Positions 17,091 to 19,315 of a stretch of 21,839 nt of DNA are shown in pieces; position 1 is the stretch's first letter; each line of letters starts with the position of its first letter. The notes beneath the pieces were generated by a model. The model did not search any database. It was not told the DNA's origin and saw nothing but the letters and a program-made list of their open reading frames with translations. Source of the DNA: a virus; IMG/VR virus record IMGVR_UViG_3300030419_000500, positions 1 through 21,839 of that record; one strand, 5' to 3'. A program made the translations under genes and the position numbers.

Positions 17091-17344
17091 GATTTGGAAT
17101 AGATATCGCTAAAGCTCGTGAACTTCATAAAGATAAAATCCGTATAGCTCGTAAACCGAAGCTAGAAGAATTAGATATTGAATTCAATAAAGCTTTAGAA
17201 ACAAGTGCAGATACCACTTCAATCGTATCTAAAAAACAAGCTTTAAGAGATGCTCCAGCAAACGCAGCTATAAATGCAGCTAAAACTACTGAGGAGCTGA
17301 AAGCTTCTTGGGATACTGATGTTCTAGGAAAAACTCCTTATTAA
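17087..17344 (+). CDS. Probable tail fiber assembly chaperone-like protein (85 aa)
   Basis: This 85-residue, probably all-helical protein contains DIAKARELHKDKIRIARKPK, then LEELDIEFNKALETSADT, KKQALRDAPANAAINAAKT and TEELKASW. The layout 'A..-H.DKIR.AR.P.LE.LD.EF..ALE......I..KKQALRDAP...AI..A.T.EELKA.W' is typical of phage tail-fiber-assembly-type proteins in many podoviruses and prophages. It follows the 66-aa gene with a TAAATTATGG junction; here a GGAG (17077-17080) gives a proper ribosome site. Its stop overlaps the next start (TAATG). A chaperone role is known for related proteins but inferred here. Confidence 0.75.
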   Translation: MGFGIDIAKARELHKDKIRIARKPKLEELDIEFNKALETSADTTSIVSKKQALRDAPANAAINAAKTTEELKASWDTDVLGKTPY

Positions 17345-17733
17345 TGATAAAAATACCTAGTGCTAACCTACCCAAGGCATTAGATATCCCTCAGTTGTAC
17401 TTTAAACCGCCTACAGCGGACGTTCCTGCCTATAAACCTATGGTTATACCTCCAGCTGATTTGGAGCGTCCTAAGGACACTGAGGCGGAACCTACAACTG
17501 AAGAGCCAGAACCACCTAAGTTAACAATTCCTGTATTAGACATACAAATGCCAATACCTGAAACAGCGGTAGTGGTAACGGCTGTAACAACAGCTGTAGT
17601 GGCAGTGGCAACCACCTCTGTTACTCAAACATTATTTGAACCAATTAAAAAGAAAGTTCAGAAGCAGTTACAAGCTAAAGTCAACAAATGGAAAGAAAAC
17701 CGGAAGAAAAAAAAGGACTCCTCGGAAAGCTAA
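17344..17733 (+). CDS. Proline-rich single-span membrane protein (129 aa), function unknown
   Basis: Residues 1-72 hold 17 prolines spread evenly (IPSANLPKALDIP, KPPTADVPAYKP, EEPEPPKLTIPVL), which suggests an extended chain. Residues 74-98 are a hydrophobic Val/Ala/Thr stretch (TAVVVTAVTTAVVAVATTSV) long enough to cross a membrane. The tail after residue 100 is strongly basic (KKKVQ...KWKENRKKKKD), which predicts a cytoplasmic C-terminus and an exported proline-rich N-terminus. Similar proline-rich ORFs occur in cyanophages, usually without a known function. It overlaps the upstream stop by one base and the downstream holin-like gene by 46 bases. It could be a lysis or envelope-interaction protein, or a minor virion component. 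Confidence 0.7.
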   Translation: MIKIPSANLPKALDIPQLYFKPPTADVPAYKPMVIPPADLERPKDTEAEPTTEEPEPPKLTIPVLDIQMPIPETAVVVTAVTTAVVAVATTSVTQTLFEPIKKKVQKQLQAKVNKWKENRKKKKDSSES

Positions 17734-17999
17734 AAGATGCTGCCGTAGATCAAGAACACCAAATCCAAATTCTCGGAACATTCGTCAGACTTGGCGTTGT
17801 TGTTTGGTCTGGATTTATTATAACTTTAAATTATGTAGAAATACCTATGGTCAAGAAATCTGGTAACTCAGATATCACGTTTGTGGCAAGTGTGTTTACG
17901 GGTGCACTTGCGACTTTTGGCTTGGCTACTGGTAATTCTAAAGATAAGGGTAACAACACACCCGTCAACTGTCCTATGGTAAAGAAAAAGGAAGTATGA
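17688..17999 (+). CDS. Two-span membrane protein, candidate holin (103 aa)
   Basis: This 103-residue protein has a charged N-terminus (MERKPEEKKGLLGKLKD) and two predicted membrane spans. The first is near residues 31-50 (TFVRLGVVVWSGFIITLNYV) and the second near 62-81 (DITFVASVFTGALATFGLAT). A short basic tail follows (PMVKKKEV). The size and topology fit a class II holin such as T7 gp17.5, and the position after the fiber genes and before the terminase also matches T7 17.5. Similar ORFs recur in cyanophage podoviruses. The start lies inside the previous gene, and the stop forms an ATGA overlap with the next. No experimental support can be read from sequence, and an endolysin partner is not in this window. 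Confidence 0.65.
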   Translation: MERKPEEKKGLLGKLKDAAVDQEHQIQILGTFVRLGVVVWSGFIITLNYVEIPMVKKSGNSDITFVASVFTGALATFGLATGNSKDKGNNTPVNCPMVKKKEV

Positions 18000-18367
18000 A
18001 GAAATGGCTATTACTCTTCCTACTAGCATCACCCATGGTAGCGAGAGCCGAATTAGTGACTCCCCAATTCACCCAGGGGTCGATGAATTCAACAACGACA
18101 ACTCAACAGGATATAGAAGAAGATATAACGATCACCAAGTATGGTTCAGTTCTAAGCTCGTGGAGTGGAGAGAATATTACACATACTTCAGCAACTTCTG
18201 GAGGAATAGTAGATTCAGATTCAGTATTCACGATCCATACAGTAGGAGACCCATTCACTCTAGAAATAACAACCAGAGCAGCAACTCAAGTACTAGAAAC
18301 ACAGGAAATCGAAAGAACTATCGAAACTACTGCTACTACTACCTCGCTCTCTGTCTTCTCTCAATAG
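17996..18367 (+). CDS. Secreted Thr/Ser-rich protein (123 aa), function unknown
   Basis: The N-terminus MKKWLLLFLLASPMVARA is a textbook Sec signal peptide, with probable cleavage after residue 18. The mature part of about 105 residues is rich in Thr and Ser, with ELVTPQFTQGSMNSTTTTQQ, GSVLSSWSGENITHT, FTLEITTRAATQVLETQEIE and a terminal ATTTSLSVFSQ. I recall similar secreted ORFs beside the same neighbours in cyanophage genomes, with no assigned role. The start has an AAGGAAG just upstream and overlaps the holin-like stop (ATGA). From 18004 onward it shares DNA with another open frame, which carries the next gene. It is probably periplasmic or envelope-located. A lysis role is possible from context but unproven. 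Confidence 0.72.
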   Translation: MKKWLLLFLLASPMVARAELVTPQFTQGSMNSTTTTQQDIEEDITITKYGSVLSSWSGENITHTSATSGGIVDSDSVFTIHTVGDPFTLEITTRAATQVLETQEIERTIETTATTTSLSVFSQ

Positions 18368-18915
18368 GTTTACCTGTTCGTGCAGAACCAGAAGTACAGA
18401 ATACCTCAAATCCAGTTGCTGCTGCTACTGGTAACGTTACAAACCAAGCTGTACAATTTCAAAACAATGGAGCACCCAGTAGACAAATAATGGGTCCGAA
18501 TATTAGTTGTAATGGTAGTACTATGACATTCTCCCCGTTTTATATGGGGAATCATACTACTCCATTCGATGAGAATATGGATCAATCTAGCTATACTGTA
18601 GCTGAAAACTGGGGTTTCCAAATTAATTTTATGGTTCCATTAGATGGATCTATTGTAGAAAGATGTAAATCAATAGCAGCCAGGCAGGAAGCTAAGATGG
18701 CTCTAGACTATGAATTAGTTAGAGCTAAGGAATGTGCAAACCTTCAACAAAAAGGTTTTATGATAGTGCCTGGAAGCCGTGTATATAAAATGTGTAGTGA
18801 CATCATTCCTATATCTACATACCTCAAAGCACAAGCTAAAGTCCAAGCTTGTAAGGAACCACCTAAGCCTTGGTGGAAACCATGGCATAAATCTCAACCC
18901 AAATGTAAATCATGA
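18004..18915 (+). CDS. Exported cysteine-containing protein, start unresolved (open frame shown)
   Basis: The coding signal in this frame is convincing from about 18340. A hydrophobic segment LALCLLSIGLPVRA (residues 114-127 counted from 18004) looks like a signal peptide cut before EPEVQ. A mature domain follows with NVTNQAVQFQNNGAPSRQ, MGPNISCNGSTMTFSPFYMG and WGFQINFMVPLDGS. Six cysteines (169, 221, 244, 264, 283, 301) suit an exported, disulfide-bonded protein. The tail is PPKPWWKPWHKSQPKCKS. Related ORFs accompany the preceding gene in cyanophages. In-frame starts are ATG 18004, GTG 18160 and ATG 18490; none sits just before the signal-like segment. The first 360 bases overlap the preceding gene in another frame. 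The stop overlaps the 51-codon gene (ATGA). Confidence 0.65.
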   Translation: MAITLPTSITHGSESRISDSPIHPGVDEFNNDNSTGYRRRYNDHQVWFSSKLVEWREYYTYFSNFWRNSRFRFSIHDPYSRRPIHSRNNNQSSNSSTRNTGNRKNYRNYCYYYLALCLLSIGLPVRAEPEVQNTSNPVAAATGNVTNQAVQFQNNGAPSRQIMGPNISCNGSTMTFSPFYMGNHTTPFDENMDQSSYTVAENWGFQINFMVPLDGSIVERCKSIAARQEAKMALDYELVRAKECANLQQKGFMIVPGSRVYKMCSDIIPISTYLKAQAKVQACKEPPKPWWKPWHKSQPKCKS

Positions 18916-19067
18916 TCGTACTTATTAAACCCATCCTTTTCGCCTTTTTAAAGTCAGATTCAGTTAAAAAGCTTGTAATAGATTTATTAGAAGCATATGT
19001 TGCTAGAACTGATAATAAGCTAGACGATCAAGCACTTAAGATTGTAAAAGAAAAACTATTCTCATAA
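18912..19067 (+). CDS. Short conserved-looking protein (51 aa) between exported protein and small terminase
   Basis: ATG at 18912 opens a 51-codon frame, MIVLIKPILFAFLKSDSVKK then LVIDLLEAYVARTDNKLDDQ and ALKIVKEKLFS. It overlaps the upstream stop as ATGA (18912-18915) and its own stop overlaps the small terminase start as TAATG (19065-19069). It therefore fills the space exactly, which supports it being real. The N-terminus is hydrophobic (ILFAFL). The rest is an amphipathic helical region with alternating charges, so it may sit on a membrane. I recall very similar tiny ORFs at this place in cyanophages, without a known function. Confidence 0.78.
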   Translation: MIVLIKPILFAFLKSDSVKKLVIDLLEAYVARTDNKLDDQALKIVKEKLFS

Positions 19068-19315
19068 TGGCTAAAGCCACAGAAGAGCAGTTTAATGAAC
19101 TGCATAACCTCGTCACCACCGAATTCCTTAAAAGGGTTAAGGGTGGCGAGGCTACCACACAAGATCTCAAAGCAGCCTGTGACTGGTTAAAGACAAATGA
19201 TATAAGTGGTGTTGCTTATAATGGTAATGCCTTAGATAAATTATCTAAAATTATCCCCAAAGTTGATCCTGAACTTGTAGCGAGGAGAATGAATGGCAAG
19301 CCAGTCTACCGCTGA
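19067..19315 (+). CDS. terS: Small terminase subunit (DNA maturase A, T7 gp18-like)
   Basis: At 82 residues this is near T7 gp18 (89 aa). The sequence EEQFNELHNLVTTEFLKRVK, then GEATTQDLKAACDWLKTNDISGVAY and VDPELVARRMNG, matches the podovirus small terminase pattern: short helices with the conserved 'DLKAACDWLKTNDI' stretch. The small subunit recognises phage DNA and brings it to the large ATPase subunit. The start overlaps the 51-aa gene stop (TAATG) and the 3' end overlaps the next gene by 23 bases. The coding DNA near 19108-19151 has an unusually GC-rich run that could form a strong hairpin. The large subunit is not adjacent but about 2 kb downstream. Confidence 0.85.
   Translation: MAKATEEQFNELHNLVTTEFLKRVKGGEATTQDLKAACDWLKTNDISGVAYNGNALDKLSKIIPKVDPELVARRMNGKPVYR
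19108..19151 (+). other. GC-rich inverted repeat inside the small terminase gene
   Basis: CCTCGTCACC (19108-19117) pairs with GGTGGCGAGG (19142-19151), giving a 10-bp stem with one G-U pair in RNA and a 24-base loop. No U-run follows, so it is not an intrinsic terminator. It stands out in an AT-rich region, but it is also made of sensible codons and may be chance. Confidence 0.45.

Follow-up and report, generated by a model that had tools for sequence, protein, structure and literature searches.

The window, by which we mean the whole 21,839-nucleotide stretch of DNA analyzed here, comes from a 25-kb virus record in IMG/VR, and the named phages most closely related to it are T7-like phages of Prochlorococcus, with NATL1A-7 ranking first (74% DNA identity to the window). 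It harbors a run of four consecutive overlapping genes (gene A, gene B, ORF1 and ORF2; Table 1), the first three of which are laid out likewise in P-SSP7. A 46-nt overlap joins genes A and B, whose homologs P-SSP7_042 and P-SSP7_043 are noted in GenBank with one and two transmembrane regions, respectively; gene B is holin-like by size only. The TGA of gene B and the ATG of ORF1 overlap as ATGA, and 8 bases 3' of the ORF1 ATG the Lys-Trp codons of ORF1 (AAA/TGG) form a second ATG that lies in the −1 frame. In T7-like phages the ORF1/ORF2 pair sits between the tail fiber genes and the small terminase gene, a slot that holds the endolysin in P60. An Rfam search of positions 17300-19100 returned no match, and a search for RNA structure near the tandem start gave no signal (z = −0.40).

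Table 1. Features of the ORF1/ORF2 locus in the window (position 1 is the first base of the window).
Feature	Coordinates	Strand	Description
Gene A	17344..17733	+	129 aa; phrog_9426; function unassigned
Gene B	17688..17999	+	103 aa; DUF6450 (PF20048)
Shine-Dalgarno-like AGGAAG	17989..17994	+	1 nt 5' of ORF1 ATG, 9 nt 5' of ORF2 ATG
Tandem start ATGAAGAAATGG	17996..18007	+	ATG 17996 (ORF1) and ATG 18004 (ORF2, frame −1)
ORF1	17996..18367	+	exported-looking beta-rich protein, 123 aa; phrog_650
ORF2	18004..18915	+	303-aa precursor; phrog_1755/phrog_848; Syn9 gp165, T4-GC 235 family
Overprinted ORF2 leader	18004..18342	+	free of stops, with little further constraint; Arg/Asn/Ser-rich, net charge positive
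GTG, possible secondary ORF2 start	18160..18162	+	homologous to the S-RIP2/S-TIP37 ATG at −193
ORF2 signal-peptide h-region and c-region LALCLLSIGLPVRA	18343..18384	+	h-core and A-x-A conserved in relatives with 23-43 aa leaders
Mature ORF2 domain (predicted)	18385..18912	+	176 aa

An earlier, sequence-only reading of this DNA had described an overprinted pair of genes for secreted proteins. Both of its members, ORF1 with its signal peptide and a frame-1 ORF ending at 18915, are present, and the 364 bases that it counted as shared if ORF2 starts at ATG 18004 are correct, amounting to 364 of the 372 nt of ORF1. The ORF2 frame is open from 5' of ATG 18004 through the stop at 18913-18915. ORF1 matches the phrog_650 profile over nearly its full length (E=5.7e-30), begins with the signal peptide MKKWLLLFLLASPMVARA and ends in the conserved C-terminus SLSVFSQ, and ORF2 matches the phrog_1755 (E=4.9e-50) and phrog_848 (E=1.1e-44) profiles. 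Judged from their sequences, both products look exported: the predicted cleavage sites, ...PMVARA/E in ORF1 and ...LPVRA/E in ORF2 (5' of the Glu at 18385), are both A-x-A sites of the signal peptidase I type. The mature ORF2 domain contains four invariant cysteines in a 60-row alignment. In family searches neither protein matches any family of known function; in Pfam, ORF2 has no match and ORF1 gives sub-threshold chance hits only, and a PDB sequence-profile search yielded no significant match for either. The model of ORF1 consists of two ~22-residue strands around a small beta domain (pLDDT 76, pTM 0.35), and its fold matches, which are weak and non-significant (best Foldseek E 0.028, best Z 4.1), are to ring-formers with long beta-hairpins such as the phi29 collar, pore-forming proteins and FliF rings; the modeled likeness to ring-forming proteins may serve as a lead only. 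The AF2 model of ORF2, of modest confidence (pLDDT 66), contains one long helix, and a fold search with it found nothing.

With the window proteins as tblastn queries, relatives of ORF2 were found in 452 phage records and relatives of ORF1 in 57. The sequence-only reading had proposed comparing the frame relation and the start of the second gene in homologous loci, and we did so for 252 loci containing both genes, drawn from IMG/VR contigs, named phages and the window's own record. In 248 of these loci the frame of ORF2 is −1 relative to ORF1, and the arrangement as a whole is far from what chance would produce. Two of the exceptions are P-SCSP phages, where ORF2 is in the other frame and has a plain ATG (MTRSTLLALSLLCLSLVSNKARA followed by EGD); the other two are the T4-like contigs L194 and L234, possibly through contig errors or real rearrangements. 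Among the compared loci we found no relative in which ORF2 plainly starts 3' of the ORF1 stop, and in nearly all loci of the first round the ORF1 stop ends 25 nt past the first base of the LALCLLS segment. A search of the available literature found nothing on the ORF1/ORF2 overlap.

In complete loci ORF2 has a canonical in-frame start inside ORF1, at a position that is specific to the lineage (counted here from the end of the ORF1 stop). Most T4-like phages have an ATG at −166 (ATG in 75 of 78 T4-like loci), a few having none at exactly that position, and the start lies at −178 in P-HM2 and −172 in S-TIM5. It is a GTG or ATG at −112 in P-SSP7-type loci, an ATG or GTG at −67 in P-SSP3-type loci and an ATG at −193 in S-RIP2 and S-TIP37, and is found at −64 in DSL-LC02 and S-H38; −56 is also among the start positions of related phages. 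A −1-frame ATG requires a Trp or Cys codon after A in ORF1, and the listed starts fall on Trp codons. In the window clade the available starts are at −208 (GTG 18160) and −364 (ATG 18004), and these are the only ATG, GTG or TTG codons in the ORF2 frame 5' of LALCLLSIGLPVRA; that none lies between 18163 and this segment had been noted from the sequence. To describe ORF2 as having no obvious start codon was wrong in kind: its starts are canonical but far upstream.

The leaders that precede the common signal-peptide core accordingly measure 23, 27, 30, 42-43, ~60-70 or 127 residues. Those of P-SSP3 (27 aa) and P-SCSP1d (23 aa) are ordinary signal peptides that end at the same site, and these short forms support export of the long-leader versions, for which cleavage is predicted; a simple cut-site rule predicts the cut slightly too early, by a few residues, in NATL1A-7, 9515-10a, S-RIP2, S-TIP37, Syn9 and P-HM2. 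The Pro codon ahead of the Trp at −112 is CCG or CCA in 40 of 40 cases, and the remainder of these genes seldom uses CCG. Among 61 loci of the window clade, 42 have AGGA, GGAG or GAGG within −18 to −5 of the second ATG; no Shine-Dalgarno core was found before the starts at −208, −112 and −67. On a quick, unrooted ORF2 tree of 69 rows, with many weak branches and long branches that meet, the start class changes 11 times, compared with a minimum of 6 and a shuffled mean of 36.8, so repeated movement of the start is probable, its direction not being given by an unrooted tree. The loci form a natural series of one overlap, in which translation comes to a single signal-peptide core from various start sites in the neighboring gene.

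Which of these starts are used is indicated by the sequence data alone, through the avoidance of stop codons in the ORF2 frame. A −1-frame stop arises wherever a T-ending ORF1 codon precedes AA, AG or GA, so the shunning of such codons marks translation in the −1 frame; we compared their observed and expected counts, which, the loci being related, are not counts of independent events. No −1-frame stop is present in 63 of 64 window-clade ORF1s, where shuffling of synonymous codons leads one to expect 3.4 per gene, and the +1 frame of the same genes is as expected (14.0 vs 13.2). Observed/expected counts upstream and downstream of the inferred start are 70/63.9 and 0/45.5 around −166 in T4-like loci, 52/61.8 and 0/26.6 around −112 in the P-SSP7 type, and 48/74.9 and 0/10.6 around −67 in the P-SSP3 type. 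In these three groups avoidance is absent or weak upstream of the start and complete downstream of it. Around −208 in the window clade the counts are 0/89.6 upstream and 0/173.3 downstream. Position bins repeat the step in avoidance, with one stop among 57 representatives of the window clade. As controls in the same window-clade loci, ORF1 gives 1/304, ORF2 past the overlap 1408/1217 and the DUF6450 gene 341/350, so that the neighboring genes are without stop avoidance.

The same preference is visible within single alignment columns. Codon 54 of ORF1 ends in T in 0 of 43 cases when the next codon would create a −1-frame stop and in 9 of 12 when it is harmless, and the corresponding figures for codon 84 are 0 of 34 and 21 of 24; upstream of GTG 18160, same-column tests at ORF1 codons 23, 28, 31 and 54 likewise point to avoidance. 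Such within-column contrasts make it less likely that the avoidance stems from common descent of the loci or from a general codon bias. The second frame of the overprinted pair is held open by selection. We also considered the leader as a conserved functional domain and rejected this, since it is little constrained beyond staying open: in the leader region, the relative synonymous diversity of ORF1 in the window clade resembles that in clades that have no overlap there, and the exceptions (the first ~20 codons and the final ~60 nt) show constraint outside the window clade as well. Because the avoidance extends 5' of GTG 18160, where ATG 18004 is the sole start, the window clade appears to start ORF2 at ATG 18004.

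Taking the sequence comparisons together, we hold it highly probable that ORF2 is initiated at the canonical ATG 18004 and that the locus is a real, conserved, out-of-phase overlap of two genes for exported proteins; the window clade is this overlap taken to near-complete overprinting. A start at ATG 18004 with a long Arg/Asn-rich leader was among the options listed in the sequence-only reading, and stop avoidance across the whole of ORF1 supports it. ORF1 and ORF2 would be read from one mRNA in different frames, with ribosomes that arrive at the tandem start, or re-initiate there after the gene B stop, choosing either frame; as gene B stops inside the tandem-start motif, coupled re-initiation in either frame is plausible. 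Translation from 18004 would read ORF1 to its end in the −1 frame, yielding a basic leader under weak constraint, and then reach the conserved signal-peptide core, where a cut of the signal peptidase I type (VRA/E) would free the mature domain. Over evolution the start would have hopped within ORF1, with leaders ranging from an ordinary 23-30 residues to 127. Against this model, signal peptides rarely have a leader as long as 127 residues, the frame relation is broken in L194 and L234, and a few T4-like loci have no ATG at exactly −166. The AAA at ORF1 codon 3 was considered as support for the second ATG and set aside; clades that start ORF2 elsewhere conserve it just as well, so the tandem ATG by itself is no evidence.

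The alternative that survives best is that ORF2 begins at GTG 18160, which lies 61 codons 5' of the signal-peptide segment, and that ATG 18004 is used little or not at all. S-RIP2/S-TIP37-type loci have an ATG at the homologous position (−193), and all but one of 65 loci of the window clade have ATG or GTG there. However, one relative has CTG there, the Shine-Dalgarno core is absent in 65 of 65 loci, and ORF2-frame stops are avoided 5' of the GTG too. We therefore regard it as unlikely to be the main start, although it may contribute as a secondary one, and only in that lesser part does the earlier proposal of a GTG 18160 start stand. A fusion product made by programmed −1 frameshifting from ORF1, another of the options raised, would account for the −1 frame of ORF2 in nearly all loci, but a scan for slippery sites near the junction found no conserved X_XXY_YYZ heptamer in any clade, the avoidance sets in far upstream, and in three other clades its onset is at a canonical start codon. 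In the P-SCSP phages, moreover, ORF2 occupies the other frame and has an ATG of its own, and in a fusion the basic residues flanking the second hydrophobic segment would come to lie on the periplasmic side, contrary to the positive-inside rule. Frameshifting is accordingly very improbable. Slighter still is the chance that ORF2 starts at a non-canonical codon near the signal peptide: such a start would yield a signal peptide of ordinary length, but the n-region has no conserved near-cognate codon, the conserved ones being placed either inside or past the hydrophobic core (−19, −4) or at variable sites far 5' of it (−172, −142), and the stop avoidance back to 18004 would be left unexplained. 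The suggestion that an assembly or sequencing indel lies behind the ORF2 frame, for which we found no support, can be dismissed as next to impossible, the same frame relation recurring in more than 200 IMG/VR contigs and in independently sequenced isolates (NATL1A-7, 9515-10a, P-SSP7, Syn9, P-HM2 and others).

These results correct the annotation of a protein pair in hundreds of cyanophages. Nested starts are already used in the GenBank records of Syn9, P-HM2, P-SSP3, P-GSP1, P-SCSP1d, NATL1A-7 and 9515-10a. Those of P-SSP7, SS120-1, NATL2A-133, S-RIP1, S-RIP2, S-SBP1 and S-TIP37 begin ORF2 at a later codon, with loss of the signal peptide; ORF1 is absent from the annotation of NATL1A-7 and 9515-10a, and ORF2 from that of S-RSM4 and S45-C4. 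By dropping either gene or clipping the ORF2 signal peptide, such records have hidden the exported look of both proteins.

The nearest known counterparts are Syn9 gp166/gp165 and P-HM2 T4-GC 236/235, which belong to the same two families (phrog_650 and phrog_848/phrog_1755) with the same −1 overlap and have ORF2 annotated from the nested ATG at −166/−178. They differ from the window clade in the length of ORF1 that is overlapped, about 166-178 nt as opposed to 364 of 372 nt. In the close window relatives NATL1A-7 and 9515-10a, ORF2 is annotated as "gp165" from the same second ATG; the records differ from the window pair in the omission of ORF1. In P-HM2 we also observed that PHM2_197 (L093:910-1467; T4-GC 237, phrog_564), a gene that precedes ORF1 in T4-like cyanophages, weakly matches the ORF1 family (phrog_650, E=1.6e-4) and may be a paralog.

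The sequence-only reading had likened the arrangement to the nested Rz/Rz1 genes while finding neither a lipobox nor spanin anatomy in the products. The likeness to lambda Rz/Rz1 and other two-component spanins, a class of gene pairs in which start-codon misannotation is reported to be common (PMC6139136), holds for the nesting of two overlapping envelope-directed genes and goes no further, and the absence of spanin anatomy is borne out. Neither cleavage site has the Cys of an o-spanin lipobox, and neither protein has the uncleaved N-terminal anchor and periplasmic coiled coil of an i-spanin: both have A-x-A sites, ORF1 is modeled as beta-rich, and the long modeled helix of ORF2 follows a cleavable-looking signal peptide. 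P-SSP7, P-HM2, P-SSM2, Syn9, S-ShM2, S-SM1 and S-SM2 have been listed as phages without recognizable spanins, and the authors of the list suggest that the task could fall to proteins with a different topology, outer-membrane proteins included (PMC6139136). We found ORF2 in all seven, and the presence of several pair-bearing phages on this list makes the pair a concrete candidate for how spanin-less cyanophages might breach the outer membrane. It is a long shot that the pair is an unrecognized outer-membrane disruption system, in which ORF1 would form a ring or beta-barrel in the outer membrane and ORF2 would be its periplasmic partner, together substituting for spanins at a ratio set by the common initiation site. 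An envelope role at lysis is our guess as to the function most worth testing; marine T7-like cyanophages are reported to have been engineered (PMC8776855). Two observations count against such a role: in T4-like phages the pair is not adjacent to known lysis genes, and a search for the pair in Syn5 and P60, both likewise listed as spanin-less (PMC6139136), found it absent from both. As a separate observation, Syn5 gp47 (L266:36392-36652) and P60 gp38 (L267:34061-34324), proteins of ~86 aa assigned to phrog_12220 and encoded between the tail fiber and small terminase genes, have an N-terminal hydrophobic segment and a coiled-coil-like remainder, an i-spanin-like anatomy.
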